64,000 bases of DNA from Dyadobacter sp. (GTDB lineage: Bacteria > Bacteroidota > Bacteroidia > Cytophagales > Spirosomataceae), in assembly GCF_017744695.1 (NCBI RefSeq), contig NZ_JAGIAS010000001.1, forward strand, positions 186,001-250,000. Reading direction: 5' to 3'. The notes under the pieces were generated by a model. It saw nothing but the letters and a program-made list of their open reading frames with translations, had not been told where the DNA came from and made no database searches. This document shows positions 4,478-11,795 of the stretch, piece after piece. Position numbers and translations under genes: made by a program. Position 1 is the first letter of the stretch. Each line of letters opens with the position of its first letter.

Positions 4478-4702
4478 TTTTAGAAGTTGATTTTTATGCA
4501 AAAAAATGCAGGTTTCATGCCCGTGACCGGTTTAAACTGACCGAAGCGTTGAATTTCGCGACCGAAACGAAGAATGGCCCTACCGAATCCCGGCCCGCGC
4601 CTGAGGTACGGGCCGGTGCCGTTTCAGTCCCGCGCACATGCGGTTCGGTACCCGATTTCCACGCATTGGATCAATTTTCGGCGGGTATCGGGCGGCGCGT
4701 TT

Positions 4703-4710
4703 TATTTTTG
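4703..4710 (+). promoter_or_regulatory. Candidate -7 promoter element for the LytS/LytTR pair
   Basis: TATTTTTG matches the Bacteroidota -7 consensus TAnnTTTG exactly. A TTTTCG about 22 bases upstream is only a partial -33 element. The motif lies 10 bases before the ATG at 4721, which would leave a very short leader; if it is the true promoter, the ATG at 4784 is an alternative start. Moderate support only. Confidence 0.4.
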
Positions 4711-4720
4711 TAGTGAAATA

Positions 4721-5878
4721 ATGCAACCTGTCCTTGCCAAAAGGCTGGACGCGGCATTTTCAAATGCAAACCTGACACATGGAATGGCCAACGGAAGAGA
4801 CGCCTATTTTTTGAATAATAAAGGAATACGCATCCTGGTAGCGGTGCTCGCATTCCTCGCGTCGTACCTGGTATCCTACATCCTGGACCCTTTCGCGGCG
4901 TACTGGCAGCATTATTTCGAGCGCGAGCCGCTGGTCATCCTCGGCGACTGGCTGGTATCTTTTCTGTACTGCCTTTCGATTTCCGAAATCAACATCGCTA
5001 TCGGCATGCGCCTCAACAGGCTGATGTCCTGGAAGGAACACCCCGGCAAACGGCTTTTCCTGGAAACCAGTTTCAACCTGATCGCCGTCCTGCTGCTCAA
5101 CCTGCTGATCAACATCGCATTCATTTACCTTTCCGACGAAAAGCAGTTGCTACTCCTCGAATCGGGCCTTACGATTGAAGAAACGCGGGGTATCATCCAG
5201 TGGATGGTGGTGAGCACGATCATCGCGATCATGATCATGGGTATCAACATCGGTAATTACCTGATCATGAACTGGCGCAATGAGGCTATTCAGGTGGCGC
5301 AGCTCAACCAGGCCGCGATGGAGGCGGAGTTACAGTCGCTCAAATTACAGATCGACCCGCATTTTGTATTCAATAACCTCAGCGTGCTTTCGGAACTGAT
5401 CCTTGAAGACCAGCAACTGGGCTATGAATACGCGGAGAATTTTTCGCGCATCTACCGCTACATGCTGGTTAATTCCAAAAAAGACGTGATCCCGCTGGAA
5501 GACGAGCTGAAATTCCTGAACTCGTACATGTTCCTGATCGAACACCGCTTCGGGGAAGGGGTATTATTTGAAATCGACGTCGACCCGGCGCATCGCCATC
5601 TGCTGATGCCGCCGCTGACGCTGCAACTGCTTGTAGAAAATGCATTGAAACACAATCGTACCAGCAAGAAAGAGCCCCTTGTGGTGCGGATTTTCAGCAA
5701 CGAAGACAAGGAGCTGATCGTCGAAAACACGCTGTTACCGCTCGAAAAGCCGATCCAGTCGTCGGGGATCGGGATCACGAACATTGTGAGAAGGTTTAAC
5801 CTCCTCTCCCATCGCCAGCCAGTGATTGAAACCGACGAACGTACATTCAAAGTGATTATCCCATTGATAAAAATATGA
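4721..5878 (+). CDS. LytS-type membrane sensor histidine kinase
   Basis: Sensor kinase of the LytS/YehU (His_kinase) family, about 385 residues from the ATG at 4721. Four hydrophobic segments (about residues 28-50, 70-95, 110-135 and 160-185) precede the signature DPHFVFNNLSVLSEL, with phospho-accepting His214. The C-terminal ATPase shows the N-box (LLVENALKHN) and a glycine motif (SSGIGITNIVRRF). It overlaps its response regulator by four bases (ATGA), so the two are translationally coupled. The reading frame is open upstream to 4574, but those 49 codons look non-coding; MANGRD at 4784 is a second possible start. The stimulus is unknown. Confidence 0.93.
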   Translation: MQPVLAKRLDAAFSNANLTHGMANGRDAYFLNNKGIRILVAVLAFLASYLVSYILDPFAAYWQHYFEREPLVILGDWLVSFLYCLSISEINIAIGMRLNRLMSWKEHPGKRLFLETSFNLIAVLLLNLLINIAFIYLSDEKQLLLLESGLTIEETRGIIQWMVVSTIIAIMIMGINIGNYLIMNWRNEAIQVAQLNQAAMEAELQSLKLQIDPHFVFNNLSVLSELILEDQQLGYEYAENFSRIYRYMLVNSKKDVIPLEDELKFLNSYMFLIEHRFGEGVLFEIDVDPAHRHLLMPPLTLQLLVENALKHNRTSKKEPLVVRIFSNEDKELIVENTLLPLEKPIQSSGIGITNIVRRFNLLSHRQPVIETDERTFKVIIPLIKI

Positions 5879-6630
5879 TTGACACCATTCTGATCATCGA
5901 GGATGAAAAACCCAATGCCGACCGCCTGCGCAGGCTGATCAAGGCGATCCGGCCCAAAGCCGAAATTGTGGCCGTGCTGGAAAGCATTACCGAAACCGTC
6001 GAATGGCTCGGCCAGCACCCTCACCCGGACCTGGTGATGGTCGATGTACGACTCTCGGATGGCCTGAGCTTCGAGATCTTTGAAAAAGTGCGCATCGAAT
6101 GCCCCGTCATTTTCACGACAGCTTATGATGAATACGCCGTGCGGGCATTCAAATACAACAGCATCGATTACCTGCTGAAACCCGTGGAGCAGGACGAGCT
6201 CGAAAATGCATTCGCAGAGGCCGAAAAACAGACCCGCCGGCTCGACTTCAGTTCACTGGAAGGGCTGCTGAACTTTGTCCAGCCGAAAGAATTCCGGAGC
6301 CGGTTCCTGCTGCCTTTCAAAGACGGGTACAAAACCGTGCTGGTGAGCGACGTGATTTTCTTTCATTCCGAATTCAAGATCACGCGTGCCTGCCTGACCG
6401 ACGGTTCCGAAGAAGTACTGGTTCAAACGATGGAAGAACTTGAACAGCAGCTCAACCCGAAGGAGTTCTTTCGTGCCAACCGCCAATTTATCATTCATAT
6501 AGACGCTATCGCACGCATTCACCACCATTTCAACGGGAAGCTCAAAATCGATATCCGCAATCATCCTGAGGTAGAAGTGCTGGTAAGCCGGGAAAAGGCA
6601 AATGTGCTGAAAGCCTGGCTGGATTATTAA
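5875..6630 (+). CDS. LytTR-family response regulator
   Basis: Cytoplasmic DNA-binding response regulator, 251 residues. The receiver domain (1-120) has the acidic pair Glu9-Asp10, phospho-acceptor Asp57 in VMVDVRLSDG, the conserved Thr in FTTAYDEYA and Lys in YLLKPV. The C-terminal half is a LytTR DNA-binding domain, ending FRANRQFIIHIDAIARI...VEVLVSREKANVLKAWL. The start overlaps the kinase stop by four bases. Its targets cannot be read from the window; the divergent efflux operon and the downstream ACP/P450 genes are the nearest candidates. Confidence 0.95.
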   Translation: MIDTILIIEDEKPNADRLRRLIKAIRPKAEIVAVLESITETVEWLGQHPHPDLVMVDVRLSDGLSFEIFEKVRIECPVIFTTAYDEYAVRAFKYNSIDYLLKPVEQDELENAFAEAEKQTRRLDFSSLEGLLNFVQPKEFRSRFLLPFKDGYKTVLVSDVIFFHSEFKITRACLTDGSEEVLVQTMEELEQQLNPKEFFRANRQFIIHIDAIARIHHHFNGKLKIDIRNHPEVEVLVSREKANVLKAWLDY

Positions 6631-6794: not shown

Positions 6795-7043
6795 ATGCCC
6801 AAGACCTTTACTGAAATTTCCGAATGGATCGCCGCGAACATTTCAAAACACGCGGGAATTGATCCCTCCGAAGCTGCACTCGATACCGACATTGTCAATT
6901 TTCGATTAGATTCCCTCATTCTCGTCAACATCACCACTGAGCTGGAAGAATATGTCGGGATGGAATTAAGCCCTTCCATTTTTTGGGAGATGCGTACCAT
7001 TGCCGCCACCAGCCAATGGATTGCAGAAAACCAGGAAATATAA
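6795..7043 (+). CDS. Acyl/peptidyl carrier protein
   Basis: Small acidic carrier protein of 82 residues. From the ATG at 6795 it starts MPKTFTEISEWIA and carries the phosphopantetheine site as DSLILVN, with Ser40 as the predicted attachment residue. The DSL(x)xV core and following helix-2 ELEEYVGMELSP fit the PP-binding fold. A TTG eight codons upstream is an alternative start. It is the first gene of a run with P450, MBOAT and SGNH genes, so it probably serves as a dedicated shuttle, in the manner of DltC or a discrete NRPS/PKS carrier, rather than the housekeeping fatty-acid ACP. No loading (adenylation) enzyme is present in the window. Confidence 0.88.
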   Translation: MPKTFTEISEWIAANISKHAGIDPSEAALDTDIVNFRLDSLILVNITTELEEYVGMELSPSIFWEMRTIAATSQWIAENQEI

Positions 7044-7063
7044 AAACCATTTCCGTCTTGATC

Positions 7064-8272
7064 ATGCAAACCCCGCTCATGTCTGCGACGTCGATCTGGT
7101 CGTCGAAAACCGAGGTCAATCAAAACTATTCCGGGCTGATCGCCGACATCCGCCAGTCGGACCCGCTGCATTTCAATATGTTCGGTGACCTGGTGGCGAT
7201 GGATTATGCCAACGTGAAGAAGATCCTGTCCGATTTGGACAATTTCAAAAATTTCGACTTTACCGAGCGGTTCAAAATCGTGTCGGCCCTCTCGGACAAC
7301 GACCCCGGCCTGCTCGAATTCGGGGAAAGCCTTCGCTACTGGTTACTGTTTATGAATGGTGAAAAGCATGCAGAGCACCGCCGTTTCGTGAACCAGAAGT
7401 TTTACCAGGCCGACTACGAAAAAATCACCCTTGACGCGATCCAGGAGATTATCACGGGGCTCGACGGGCAGAACGAAGCAGATATCGTGGAAATGGCGCG
7501 GCAGTTCAGCTTTCTGATCATCAGCAAGATTATCCATCTGGAAAAAGCGGATTACGATTTTATCCAGAAGTTTTCCTACGTCATTACCTTTATTTTCGAA
7601 AAAACACTGTCCGTCACCGAGTTGCTGGAATGCGCGGCGATGTCGCGGCAGTTCCACGGCTATCTTTCCGAAACGTTTACCCGCCAGGAAGCCGAGGCTA
7701 CCAACAGTCTTCTGCTCGAAATGCGGGAGATCATGGGCAGCGAAAGGGCCCCGCAACTGATCGGCACCTGGGAATTCCTGGTCAATGCTGCCACGGAAAC
7801 CACTACCCTGCTGCTGACCAAAAGCATTGCGGCGCTGATCGAAAACCGCGACCAGGTGATCAACTGGGACGCCCATAATGAATGCGCCATTGCCGTGGAA
7901 GAGCTGATCCGCTACGTAAGCCCGGTGAACTGGATTCCCCGGCAGGTCGCGCACAGCATGGAATTTGAAGGATTGAAGCTCAGAAAAGGCCAGACTGTGC
8001 TACTGGGCCTGGCTTCTGCGAATCGTGACCCGGCGGTATTTCTAAATCCTGATACGTTCGTGCCCACCCGTAAGCCTAATCCGCACATCGGTTTCGGCTT
8101 TGGCATGCACCATTGCCTCGGCGCGCGGCTATCCAGGTTCGAAATGCAGAAGTTCCTGCCCCGTTTCATGGCCGCGTTCCCGGATATCCGTTTACATCCT
8201 ACCCAAAGCCCTGAATGGGATTCCAAGATTTTTTTCAGGGGCTACAAGCGTTTACCCGTGCTCTTAAAGTAA
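7064..8272 (+). CDS. Cytochrome P450
   Basis: Soluble bacterial P450 of about 402 residues from the ATG at 7064, 20 bases after the carrier-protein stop; the frame is open further upstream but overlaps that gene. The haem loop FGFGMHHCLGARLSR places the ligand at Cys351, the K-helix ExxR is Glu280-Arg283 (EELIR), and the I-helix reads NAATETTTLL, with Glu in place of the usual Asp before the oxygen-activating Thr. No membrane anchor and no fused reductase are seen, so it needs ferredoxin partners from elsewhere. Position directly after an ACP recalls P450s that oxidise carrier-bound acyl or aminoacyl groups (P450BioI, NikQ); acting on this ACP is inference. Confidence 0.95.
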   Translation: MQTPLMSATSIWSSKTEVNQNYSGLIADIRQSDPLHFNMFGDLVAMDYANVKKILSDLDNFKNFDFTERFKIVSALSDNDPGLLEFGESLRYWLLFMNGEKHAEHRRFVNQKFYQADYEKITLDAIQEIITGLDGQNEADIVEMARQFSFLIISKIIHLEKADYDFIQKFSYVITFIFEKTLSVTELLECAAMSRQFHGYLSETFTRQEAEATNSLLLEMREIMGSERAPQLIGTWEFLVNAATETTTLLLTKSIAALIENRDQVINWDAHNECAIAVEELIRYVSPVNWIPRQVAHSMEFEGLKLRKGQTVLLGLASANRDPAVFLNPDTFVPTRKPNPHIGFGFGMHHCLGARLSRFEMQKFLPRFMAAFPDIRLHPTQSPEWDSKIFFRGYKRLPVLLK

Positions 8273-8278
8273 AAGTGC

Positions 8279-9688
8279 ATGGTTAAATTCACGGATTTCA
8301 CGTATTTACTTCTGTTATCCCTCGTTGTTGCTGCCTATTACAAAGTACCGGAAGCAAAAAAATGGGTCTTTCTGCTGGTCGCCAGCGTTTTGTTCAATCT
8401 CAGCTGGAGTGGAAAATACCTGGTCGTGTGGCTGATCCTGGTCACGATCTGCTACGCATCCGGCAAGGCATTGGCCAATCAGGCATATTCCAAAAAGCAG
8501 CGGAAAGCACTGCTCTCGCTGTCCATCGTGATCTGCCTTTCGCCGCTTTTGTTTTTCAAATACCTGGTGCCGGTCCATAACTCCGTGTCACTGGTCGCGC
8601 TGAACTGGATCGCGCCCATTGGTATTTCCTATTACACGTTCCTGATCATCGGGTACCTCTACGACGTGTACCGCCGGTATATCAAACCGGAAAACCACCT
8701 CGGCTACCTGATGATCTACCTCGGCTTTTTCCCAACGCTGCTGGCGGGCCCGCTGGAACGCACACGCCAGCTCGTCCCGCAACTCCGGGCCCCGAAGCCG
8801 TATGACCAGGAAAACATCAAGGCCGGCATTTACTTCATTATCTGGGGGTTATTTAAAAAAATCGTCCTTGCGGCCAGGCTTGCCGATATTACCAGCCCTG
8901 TTTTCGACCGGCCCGACGCCTACACCGGCATTTCCGTCACACTGGCCATCCTGTTGTTCTCCATCCAGCTTTACTGCGATTTCTCGGGCTACTGCGACAT
9001 TGCCACCGGCTCGGCCAGGTTGCTGGGAATCAGGCTTAGCAAGAATTTTTCGAACCGGTACTATTTTACGCCCTCACGGACGGAATCGTGGAGCGCCTGG
9101 AACATCACGGTCACATCCTGGTTCCGCGACTACATCTTTTTCAACATCAGCAAAGGCGTCACCAACCAGAAGCGGCTCGAATTCAACCGCTTGCTCACTT
9201 TCATCATTACCGGGCTCTGGCACGGACCGAGCTGGTCGTTCGTCATCTGGGGTTCGATGCAATGGGCTTACATCAATTTTGAAATGCGCACGAAAGATTT
9301 CTGGCAGCGGTTTTACACCAGGTTCAATTTTCCCACCGGCTCGCAGGCGCATTATGTGTGGCGCGTGGTCGTGAGGCTCCTCACCGGCACGCTGATCATG
9401 GGGTGGTTCCGTGCCGCGGAACTGAGCAGCGGGGTGCGGTTGTACAGCAGCATGTTCGGGTTTAAGTCCGGCACAACGTCCCTGCTGACGTCCAGCCTGT
9501 TGCTGACCATCGCGTTGTTCCTCGTGATGGATTTTTTCAATTATAAAATGGGGGAGAAAGAAGACATCGCTTCTTATATGTTGAAAAAAAGCGCATTGTA
9601 CCGGACTCTGTCGGTGCTGCTGCTTGTTCAGCTGGTACTGCTGTTCGGTAGGCCGTCGGTAGGCAATTTTTATTATATCCAGTTTTAA
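8279..9688 (+). CDS. MBOAT family O-acyltransferase (DltB/AlgI type)
   Basis: Polytopic membrane protein of 469 residues with about ten hydrophobic segments. It carries the MBOAT signature ITGLWHGPSWSFVIWG with invariant His315, and upstream family blocks LIIGYLYDVYRR, FFPTLLAGPLERT and YCDFSGYCDIATGSARLLG. MBOAT proteins of this branch move acyl groups across the membrane onto extracytoplasmic polymers (D-alanine in DltB, acetyl in AlgI). The start is six bases after the P450 stop and the next gene encodes an SGNH protein, the usual partner. The acyl group is unknown; the upstream ACP suggests it is delivered as a thioester on the carrier. Confidence 0.95.
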   Translation: MVKFTDFTYLLLLSLVVAAYYKVPEAKKWVFLLVASVLFNLSWSGKYLVVWLILVTICYASGKALANQAYSKKQRKALLSLSIVICLSPLLFFKYLVPVHNSVSLVALNWIAPIGISYYTFLIIGYLYDVYRRYIKPENHLGYLMIYLGFFPTLLAGPLERTRQLVPQLRAPKPYDQENIKAGIYFIIWGLFKKIVLAARLADITSPVFDRPDAYTGISVTLAILLFSIQLYCDFSGYCDIATGSARLLGIRLSKNFSNRYYFTPSRTESWSAWNITVTSWFRDYIFFNISKGVTNQKRLEFNRLLTFIITGLWHGPSWSFVIWGSMQWAYINFEMRTKDFWQRFYTRFNFPTGSQAHYVWRVVVRLLTGTLIMGWFRAAELSSGVRLYSSMFGFKSGTTSLLTSSLLLTIALFLVMDFFNYKMGEKEDIASYMLKKSALYRTLSVLLLVQLVLLFGRPSVGNFYYIQF

Positions 9689-9713
9689 TCAATCATTCTC
9701 CAAGGCAGGCATC

Positions 9714-10676
9714 ATGATTGTCAAAATTACCAAATGGCTGCTGCTGCTTGTCGCCTTTAAGGTGGTCGTCACGCTGATTGTCGCACGCTTTTACACCGAC
9801 CCGCGACGCGACATCCCTGCGAGGGAGCAACTTTGCCGCGCTTACCATCCGGATGTCGTTTTCATCGGTACCAGCCGGACCCAATACGGAATCGACCCGG
9901 CACTTTTCGACTCGCTCAACCACTCAAAAACAAGGAGCTACAATTTCGGCATTTTCAGTCTTTCGCCTTATAGCTCCATCCGGATTGCGGATGACATACT
10001 TTCGACGGCCCCTGCCGTAAAAACTATCTATATCGAGCTGAGCGCGCTCGATTACAGTACCGTGGCACTGCCGCCGCAACAGGTTATCCCGGACGCTATT
10101 TTCCGGGCCAACGTACTGGCCGACTGCCCCGACATCGATTTCCACGAAAAGACCGGTAGCTTCCTGGCCGGCCTCAATACGACATTGTTCCAGATGGTAT
10201 CCATTGCTCCGCAAGTGCTGTCTGCCAGGAAAGCGCTCAACCCGGGCAACAATGACCCTATCGAAGGTCAGGCTAACCTCCTGGCCAACGGTTACCAGCC
10301 CGTGATGGCGGCTCTTTCCAAAACAAATGACCGGATCGTTGCCAATAAAAGCGCGACCGAACAAATGCTAGGCATTCGCCCGCAGCCGGAACGGAATACC
10401 TATTATGTTTCTCAAATCAAGCAGCTGATCGCGCGCGCCAGGCAACTGGGCAGGAAAGTTGTTTTCTATTATCCCAACAACATTACCCGGGGTGAATACC
10501 GTATCCTATCACAGGTAGCACCATTTCTGCCTGATGATAATCTGATCCGGTTGCCGGAACAGCCCTTGCTCGATGCGTTTTTTATCCCCGAAAACCTGTT
10601 CGATGCCCACCACCTGAACCGGAAAGGGGCGGCGATATACACCCGTTTTTTGCAGGAAGAGTCCGTCAAACGGTAA
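9714..10676 (+). CDS. Membrane-anchored SGNH-fold protein (DltD/AlgX-like partner)
   Basis: 320-residue protein with one N-terminal membrane helix (WLLLLVAFKVVVTLIVA) and an extracytoplasmic domain. Block I is FIGTSRTQYG with Ser54, and the C-terminal block is DAHHLNRKGA with Asp297 and His300, together the SGNH esterase/acyltransferase layout. Proteins of this kind sit directly after MBOAT genes and complete acyl transfer to a surface polymer. It lies 25 bases downstream of the MBOAT gene. It has no stretch that lets me name a finer family. It may be hydrolase or transferase; the MBOAT neighbour favours transferase. Confidence 0.8.
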   Translation: MIVKITKWLLLLVAFKVVVTLIVARFYTDPRRDIPAREQLCRAYHPDVVFIGTSRTQYGIDPALFDSLNHSKTRSYNFGIFSLSPYSSIRIADDILSTAPAVKTIYIELSALDYSTVALPPQQVIPDAIFRANVLADCPDIDFHEKTGSFLAGLNTTLFQMVSIAPQVLSARKALNPGNNDPIEGQANLLANGYQPVMAALSKTNDRIVANKSATEQMLGIRPQPERNTYYVSQIKQLIARARQLGRKVVFYYPNNITRGEYRILSQVAPFLPDDNLIRLPEQPLLDAFFIPENLFDAHHLNRKGAAIYTRFLQEESVKR

Positions 10677-10707
10677 GTGTCTGGCGGTTTTGCAACTTTT
10701 AAAGACC

Positions 10708-11325
10708 ATGGCTGTCCAATCAGTAGCAATGGATCAGAAAGAACATCATAAGCCGACCGACCGTATGCTGGTGGAACGGGTGCTCAGTGGCAACACCAGG
10801 GCGTTCGGAACGATCGTCAGGGATACCGAAGGGCTCGTCGCGCAGATCGTGTTCAAGATGATCCCCGACCGGGAAGAGCGACGGGATATTGCCCAGGACG
10901 TTTACCTGAAAGTCTTTCAAAAGCTGGATAGCTTCCGTTTTCAGTCCAAACTCTCCACCTGGATTGCGAGAATTGCCTACAATACCTGCATTAATCAGCT
11001 CGAAAAAAATAAAACCTCGGCCATTGGAACTCAGTATTTCATACGCACCGGCGAAGAAGACGACCACCCGCACGAGTATGCAGATGAGCATGATATGGAA
11101 GAAAATCTCATGGGTGCCGAGTTTGACAGTTTACTTCAATCGGAAATCGAAAAACTTCCGGCCTTGTACAAGCTCCTGATTACGCTCTATCACCACCAGG
11201 AGCTAAGCTATTCGGAAATCGCGCAGATCGTGGCCCTGCCGGACGGCACGATCAAAAATTACCTGTTCAGGGCCCGGAAAATTTTGAAAGAACGAATGCA
11301 AATGATTTACAATAAGGGCTTATGA
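10708..11325 (+). CDS. ECF-type RNA polymerase sigma factor
   Basis: Sigma-70 family protein of about 205 residues. Region 2 reads ERRDIAQDVYLKVFQKLDSFRFQSKLSTWIARIAYNTCINQL and region 4 LSYSEIAQIVALPDGTIKNYLFRARKIL. An acidic insert (EEDDHPHEYADEHDMEE) separates the two. Starts at 10708 and 10729 are both ATG; a TTG at 10690 is in the same frame. The stop overlaps the next gene by four bases, and that gene encodes a putative zinc-finger anti-sigma factor, so this is a sigma/anti-sigma pair. Targets are unknown. Confidence 0.93.
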   Translation: MAVQSVAMDQKEHHKPTDRMLVERVLSGNTRAFGTIVRDTEGLVAQIVFKMIPDREERRDIAQDVYLKVFQKLDSFRFQSKLSTWIARIAYNTCINQLEKNKTSAIGTQYFIRTGEEDDHPHEYADEHDMEENLMGAEFDSLLQSEIEKLPALYKLLITLYHHQELSYSEIAQIVALPDGTIKNYLFRARKILKERMQMIYNKGL

Positions 11326-11795
11326 AAACAGCGGATCATTTATCAGACATGGAAATTCAGCAATATGCGCTGGATACCGGAAGCGCAGACAATGCATCGC
11401 ATATCGCACAATGCCCGCATTGCTCAGGCCGGGTTGCCTTTTATCAAAAAATGGTCGGTAGCATTTCGGCAATGCCCGCGGAAGAATTTGACTTCGACCT
11501 CGCGAAAGTGGTGCTGACGCGACTTCCGTCGCGGAAGCGCAGGTACGCTCCTGAGCTCGTGTTCCTGGCGTGCGTCTCGCTCGCAGGCATTCTCGCGACC
11601 ATTGGGGTGTTTTGTTACCTCAATACCGGACTACTGCGTGAACTGCTATGGAATAGCAAGGTGATTATGGGCGGCGTAGCAGGCTGCTTACTGTTTTCTT
11701 TCCTGCTCACCAATCTGTGGAAAGACTACTCCGACAAAATCCGCGCGCTCAATGCGGCGGAGAGGCTGCAACATTTCCCCGGTGCGGCGGTCTAA
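11322..11795 (+). CDS. Putative zinc-binding anti-sigma factor
   Basis: 157-residue protein coupled by a four-base overlap (ATGA) to the sigma gene. The N-terminal part has HIAQCPHC, matching the HxxxCxxC zinc motif of ZAS anti-sigma domains (His27, Cys31, Cys34). Two hydrophobic segments follow (about residues 80-105 and 115-132), so the sigma-binding part is cytoplasmic and membrane-tethered. No large periplasmic domain is present, unlike many anti-sigma factors that are cut by proteolysis; release may instead be redox- or membrane-linked. The role rests on motif and position. Confidence 0.75.
   Translation: MKTADHLSDMEIQQYALDTGSADNASHIAQCPHCSGRVAFYQKMVGSISAMPAEEFDFDLAKVVLTRLPSRKRRYAPELVFLACVSLAGILATIGVFCYLNTGLLRELLWNSKVIMGGVAGCLLFSFLLTNLWKDYSDKIRALNAAERLQHFPGAAV

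Follow-up and report, generated by a model that had tools for sequence, protein, structure and literature searches.

A conserved gene unit for an acyl carrier protein, a cytochrome P450, an MBOAT and an SGNH protein in Dyadobacter and relatives: core of a probable carrier-dependent envelope acylation pathway

In a stretch of 64,000 nucleotides from Dyadobacter sp. (Bacteroidota; assembly GCF_017744695.1, contig NZ_JAGIAS010000001.1, positions 186,001 to 250,000; hereafter the window, or G000:C9:186001-250000 under our own labels, in which G stands for genomes, C for contigs and L for loci), we found that four consecutive plus-strand genes at 6795-10676, encoding an acyl carrier protein (ACP), a cytochrome P450, an MBOAT and an SGNH protein, form one conserved unit. 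This cassette probably forms the core of an ACP-dependent pathway for envelope acylation, whose chemical steps, substrate and acceptor we infer from the gene unit itself, the protein families, the conservation of catalytic residues, the linkage to a fatty acyl-AMP ligase (FAAL) and a C-terminal motif of the MBOAT. The host genome measures 7.8 Mb, and the best P450 identities among named records were to Dyadobacter jiangsuensis (96%) and D. fermentans (95%). An earlier note, made from the letters of the window, had described a Dlt-like acyl export path with an oxidation step. The gene arrangement that it gave was confirmed exactly, and its description is well supported as far as architecture is concerned. 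The features are as follows.

6795..7043, plus strand: acyl carrier protein, 82 aa; Pfam PP-binding, 3.9e-11; phosphopantetheine site Ser40 (codon 6912)
7064..8272 (alternative start 7079), plus strand: cytochrome P450, 402 aa; Pfam p450; haem Cys351 (codon 8114)
8279..9688, plus strand: MBOAT O-acyltransferase, 469 aa; Pfam MBOAT, 7.6e-25; His315 (codon 9221)
9668..9685, plus strand: C-terminal hexapeptide FYYIQF of the MBOAT, an FXYXXF motif; Tyr466 (codon 9674)
9714..10676, plus strand: membrane-anchored SGNH protein, 320 aa; Ser54/Asp297/His300

Among 48 Dyadobacter genomes, 22 (the window's included) had a window-type P450 of 72-100% identity, and the order ACP-P450-MBOAT-SGNH was kept in all 22. 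Two further members of the genus (G008 and G042) carried a distant version, with a P450 only 27% identical and an unchanged set and order of the four genes. Beyond the genus, the set was found within the same family in G102, G158, G138 and five genomes of a single genus, labelled g2, and in another family in G316 and G265, which came from a draw of 390 genomes from the order. This gives a total of 34 loci in as many genomes, from six genera and two families, all with the four genes on one strand, with the ACP gene directly before that of the P450 and with neighbours spaced by -28 to +155 bases (start codons were chosen by script). Conservation thus covers all four genes and not just the MBOAT-SGNH pair, a restriction that the earlier note had considered. 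The genes flanking the cassette in the window (RND pump, two-component pair, sigma factor and S41 protease) stayed together only in the two nearest genomes, and we therefore take the unit to be the four genes rather than the neighbourhood. Across seven representatives, the lowest identities to the window were 30% for the ACP, 21% for the P450, 28% for the MBOAT and 18% for the SGNH protein, representatives outside the main Dyadobacter group being 18-37% identical. Pairwise distances of the four proteins were closely correlated (r = 0.958-0.990, 561 pairs), to which common descent of the genomes contributes.

The family survey comprised 222 genomes, 44 of them with a P450 match, and the contexts of 38 of these 44 were read (all but those in G089, G097, G106, G131, G161 and G170). 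For the order and the phylum, 390 and 395 genomes were drawn from larger groups and searched at E <= 1e-45. The order draw yielded 25 further matching genomes, nine of which were read over 9.5-19 kb and three over 1.5-kb flanks; the phylum draw added no four-gene loci, as judged from 14 new genomes read over 1.5-kb flanks, five of them also over 11-18 kb. For comparison, we inspected 61 non-Dyadobacter loci with P450s of 25-37% identity, spanning 4.4-21.6 kb. None of them had an MBOAT or SGNH gene, and a single ACP gene was seen, on the opposite strand. Likewise, no ACP, MBOAT or SGNH gene was seen at eight places in the family with other P450s, four of which were viewed with 1.5-kb flanks only.

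Catalytic residues of the ACP, the P450 and the MBOAT, counted in alignments, were conserved throughout. The phosphopantetheine serine of the ACP was kept in 37/37 loci, as were Cys351, Glu280, Arg283 and Glu245 of the P450 (covering the ExxR motif and the haem cysteine), and His315 of the MBOAT was kept in 34/34. The ACP of the window reached only 19.6 bits on the model of the general fatty-acid ACP, against a cut-off of 70, and a separate ACP of 78 aa is encoded in the same genome next to a fabF-like gene (judged by eye). This rules out that the ACP of the cassette is the general fatty-acid ACP, an outcome that the earlier note had named as refuting, and shows the carrier to be a dedicated one. 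Elsewhere on the contig of the window, a 2365-aa open frame, probably a synthase, gave two carrier-protein matches (L005, L008; G000:C9:911937-912413).

The nearest solved relatives of the P450, searched with a profile of 12 family members, were PksS (3e-86) and P450BioI of entry 3ejb (1e-85), nearly tied; the same two were nearest in a single-sequence search. Entry 3ejb presumably holds P450BioI in complex with an acyl-ACP, and P450BioI works on acyl-ACP. This kinship, together with the adjoining ACP gene, suggests by analogy that the P450 of the cassette may oxidise an ACP-bound chain.

In 14 of the 22 Dyadobacter loci, the ACP gene is immediately preceded by one for an AMP ligase of about 547 aa and the SGNH gene is followed by one for a sodium:solute symporter (PF00474), both on the same strand as the cassette. 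In one of these 14 (G006, L061) the ligase gene of an otherwise complete operon is broken by an inner stop. The ligase scored 240-351 bits on models of fatty-acid and fatty acyl AMP ligases, none reaching its curated cut-off, and on CoA-ligase models it scored 269 bits (PRK07768) and 162 bits for the next. Among solved structures it matched FAALs with up to 356 bits (7r7f) and 279 bits (3kxw), with FadD23, FadD32 and FadD28 also among the matches, whereas DltA structures gave 58 bits. By these matches, the linked ligase is of the FAAL class and not of the CoA-ligase class. FAALs activate fatty acids. For this reason a fatty acyl cargo is likelier than an aminoacyl one, which shifts the "acyl or aminoacyl" group of the earlier note towards its first half.

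FAAL, at 63-100% identity, was present in all 22 genomes with the window-type cassette (the G006 copy with its inner stop) and in 2 of the 26 other Dyadobacter genomes, G041 and G015 (Fisher 2e-11, ignoring kinship). In eight cassette genomes, including that of the window, it lies at a separate locus in the order FAAL-ACP2-symporter (in G009 without the symporter there). In the window's genome FAAL is encoded at G000:C12:79599-81230. The statement that an adenylating enzyme is absent therefore holds for the window but neither for its genome nor for the operon of its relatives. The second locus of that genome, FAAL-ACP-sodium:solute symporter, occupies L072:5600-8982 (G000:C12); the symporter remains linked to FAAL-ACP even without the P450 cassette.

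Outside Dyadobacter, G158 and G138 have FAAL-ACP-P450-MBOAT-SGNH, and G140, G137 and G135 have FAAL-ACP-P450. These five loci of two other genera with FAAL beside the ACP fall on the same side of the four-protein tree as FAAL-linked Dyadobacter. The tree places the FAAL-linked loci (27 genomes) and those without FAAL (10 genomes, support 1.0) on either side of its midpoint root. Given this split and the presence of FAAL, we distinguish type A, which has FAAL, from type B, which lacks it and comprises G008, G042, G102, the five g2 genomes, G316 and G265. In both genomes of group g70 (L279, L280), an AMP ligase gene follows the SGNH gene on the same strand and perhaps encodes an alternative activating enzyme. 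The ligase scanned was that of L280 rather than L279; its best matches are CoA ligases, so it was not counted as FAAL.

The MBOAT scored 138 bits on the NCBIfam DltB model, below the cut-off of 375, and DltB (6bug) was its sole PDB match at E 0.001 (phmmer). Tyr466 and Phe469 of its terminal motif were invariant in 34/34 loci, and the first Phe of the motif was kept in 24/34, with Ala (three) or Asn (seven) in the ten type-B loci. The separate MBOATs of three g21 genomes have FFYYQF at this position, and the two other MBOATs of the window's genome have FIYFQF. According to the excerpts of PMC12148441 drawn on here, PatA acetylates the Tyr of its own C-terminal FXYXXF, from which the group passes to the SGNH protein PatB, whereas in Dlt the same Tyr motif is borne by the microprotein DltX and DltB does not have the two extra helices that carry the C-terminal motif. 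Because it has its own C-terminal Tyr shuttle motif, the MBOAT of the cassette resembles PatA in this respect and not DltB with DltX; here the Dlt comparison of the earlier note does not hold. The predicted structure of the MBOAT was mediocre (pLDDT 72.3, with residues 461-469 below 50), and we therefore base no claim on it.

As in MBOAT-SGNH acyltransferase pairs, a separate SGNH protein with Ser-Asp-His is present. It matched no Pfam or NCBIfam model. Foldseek listed DltD (6pfx) for its model at a probability of 0.97, with no match at E <= 0.001; a second structural look (VIA) supported the SGNH fold, DltD not being among the 50 matches listed there. A profile search of the PDB returned seven weak matches (best E 0.053), to cyclins and one small protein, which we took as chance.

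We propose that in type A the FAAL (here encoded on contig C12, beside the second ACP) would adenylate a fatty acid and load it onto the ACP, and that in type B, which has no FAAL, the ACP would be acylated by another way. The P450 would then oxidise the ACP-bound chain, most simply by hydroxylation, as P450BioI acts on acyl-ACP. Through His315, the MBOAT would move the oxidised acyl group from the cytoplasmic carrier to its own Tyr466 at the outer face, from where the SGNH protein (Ser54) would take it to esterify a surface glycan, probably capsule or exopolysaccharide.

The acceptor is suggested by gene neighbourhoods, mainly those of type B. All five g2 loci have a gene for Wzi-type capsule assembly next to the operon. 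Pfam identified it on both flanks in L223 and L224, on the upstream side in L226 and on the downstream side in L227; in L225, as for the downstream gene of L226, the assignment is by look-alike sequence only. Polysaccharide genes lie immediately upstream of the operon in L227 and, past the Wzi gene, further upstream in L223. Across these two loci, Pfam identified a UDP-GlcNAc 2-epimerase, NAD-dependent epimerases and glycosyltransferases (one just below cut-off), with a heparinase II/III added in L223 and proteins of polysaccharide biosynthesis in L227. Look-alikes of the upstream genes of L223 occur in L224-L226. At the FAAL locus of G041 (L107), genes for PIG-L, glycosyltransferase 2, DegT and FdtA start some 2 kb beyond the symporter gene, and members of some of these sugar-gene families come next in intact Dyadobacter loci as well. 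The FAAL gene of G138 is flanked, on the opposite strand, by one for a sugar nucleotidyltransferase. In view of these neighbourhoods, a surface polysaccharide is the likeliest acceptor. The full reading, in which a self-contained and horizontally movable FAAL-ACP-P450-MBOAT-SGNH pathway would decorate a surface polysaccharide with fatty acyl groups oxidised by the P450 on a dedicated carrier, is plausible, though slightly less likely than not.

Several observations weigh against the proposed pathway. The Dyadobacter cassettes do not lie within glycan clusters, and the catalytic Asp of the SGNH protein is replaced by Asn in L223, L224 and L225, that is, in three of the five g2 genomes. The four-gene set encodes no redox partner for the P450. 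FAAL of this kind was absent from all ten type-B genomes, with partial matches of 61-95 bits only, and is thus not universal to the unit. Conversely, G041 and G015 (L107, L108) have FAAL-ACP(-symporter) without a window-type P450. The g21 genomes G140, G137 and G135 keep FAAL-ACP-P450 apart from MBOAT-SGNH, and in G456 and G442 (L281, L282), genomes of another family (f19), ACP-P450 is accompanied only by MBOATs of the generic type. In the latter two loci we also noted, by eye, a small acetyltransferase-like gene on the strand opposite to ACP-P450.

It is conceivable, if rather doubtful, that the same pathway serves another acceptor, such as a lipid, a lipoprotein or a small molecule, in which case the set would finish a secreted or outer-membrane lipid. 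Only the g2 loci put the operon directly beside polysaccharide genes, and the symporter that adjoins the SGNH gene in 14 Dyadobacter loci has no obvious role with a polymer; moreover, FAAL, ACP and P450 are named together in papers on natural-product clusters. On the other hand, the MBOAT-SGNH pairs discussed in the excerpts of PMC12148441 acylate envelope polymers, and the genes that adjoin the operon in g2 are of the Wzi type.

We consider it improbable that the operon combines two pathways, with ACP-P450 making an oxidised fatty acid for some other use and MBOAT-SGNH transferring an ordinary group derived from acyl-CoA. Such a division would agree with the five genomes in which ACP-P450 has no adjoining MBOAT-SGNH (G140, G137, G135, G456 and G442) and with the use of acyl-CoA by other MBOAT-SGNH pathways in the same excerpts of PMC12148441. 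However, G140, G137 and G135 retain a cassette-type MBOAT-SGNH pair elsewhere, which scored 506-513 bits with the cassette profile where generic MBOATs reach about 270-310, and the four genes remain one set in 34 loci even though the representatives beyond the main Dyadobacter group share only 18-37% identity with the window.

It is very unlikely that the P450 cleaves the chain to provide a short dicarboxyl precursor (e.g., pimeloyl-ACP), as happens in biotin synthesis. This idea draws on P450BioI being among the two nearest solved relatives, but 26 of 48 Dyadobacter genomes (two of which have the distant version) do without a window-type P450, and no part in biotin synthesis is known for MBOAT-SGNH. 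A search for BioC, with 0/7 genomes over the cut-off, was uninformative on this point. Finally, closely spaced genes are nothing unusual in bacteria, but chance adjacency without a common function is ruled out for practical purposes by the survey, with 34 loci from six genera in differing surroundings and MBOAT or SGNH genes in 0/61 comparison loci.

With the Dlt system (DltA, DltB, DltC, DltD and DltX; D-alanylation of teichoic acids), the unit shares a dedicated carrier, an MBOAT, an SGNH protein, a Tyr shuttle motif and, in type A, an adenylating enzyme linked to the carrier. It differs in that its ligase is of the FAAL class rather than a D-Ala ligase, the motif is on the MBOAT itself rather than on DltX, a P450 is added, the host is Gram-negative and the SGNH protein is unmatched by Pfam and NCBIfam. 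No DltA was found at the locus of the window. A true Dlt system is ruled out by the score below cut-off on the DltB model and by the match of the ligase to FAAL (356 bits) rather than DltA (58 bits). P450BioI (CYP107H1), the second-nearest solved relative of the P450 family, cleaves its chain to supply pimelate and to our knowledge is not linked to MBOAT-SGNH. Alkyne and polyyne clusters likewise pair a FAAL with a small ACP, on which the loaded fatty acid is modified by oxidative enzymes; these clusters differ by their desaturases and by release through a thioesterase or synthase, with no MBOAT-SGNH export. PatA/PatB and AlgI-type pairs share with the unit an MBOAT with C-terminal FXYXXF, a separate SGNH protein and a Gram-negative host, but are carrier-free according to the excerpts of PMC12148441, which name no P450 or FAAL for them, whereas the unit has a dedicated ACP. 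The unit is thus a variant of MBOAT-SGNH envelope acylation and not a Dlt system. In the open-licence literature we found no paper that combines MBOAT, SGNH, cytochrome P450 and acyl carrier protein, none on fatty acyl-AMP ligase with MBOAT and P450, and none on MBOAT with acyl carrier protein, polysaccharide and Gram-negative; to that extent, the combination is without a description, as the earlier note had supposed.

The split loci bear on how the cassette spread. In the four-protein tree, the cassettes of the eight split genomes group with G021 (support 1.0). Their FAAL and a nearby histidine kinase group with G041, which has no window-type P450, in gene trees without support values (G006 was left out of the FAAL tree), and a glutamate dehydrogenase tree showed no such G041 grouping. 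The ACPs of the window and of C12 are 67% identical. These trees suggest that ACP-P450-MBOAT-SGNH probably moved horizontally, as one block, into genomes that already had a FAAL, leaving two ACPs; loss and rearrangement may alternatively account for the split loci. A plasmid-borne cassette found no support, with no plasmid match at E 1e-60.

Immediately upstream of the cassette in the window lies a histidine kinase/LytTR regulator pair (4574-6630), and immediately downstream an extracytoplasmic function (ECF) sigma factor with a likely anti-sigma gene (10690-11795). Since this block is kept solely in the two nearest Dyadobacter genomes, these genes are possible regulators by position only.

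If the proposed pathway is correct, the MBOAT would take acyl-ACP as its donor, Tyr466 would become acylated with the oxidised group, and a surface polymer would carry this group as an ester. In the excerpts of PMC12148441, all MBOAT-SGNH pathways except Dlt are without a carrier and take acyl-CoA. Because a carrier and a fused Tyr motif occur together in it, the unit would break this Dlt-only carrier rule and, with it, the split between carrier-dependent (Dlt) and carrier-free, acyl-CoA-using pathways drawn there. The added oxidation step would broaden the chemistry available for decorating a Gram-negative surface, and the tailoring logic of natural products would be joined to trans-membrane acyl transfer of the Dlt/Pat type.

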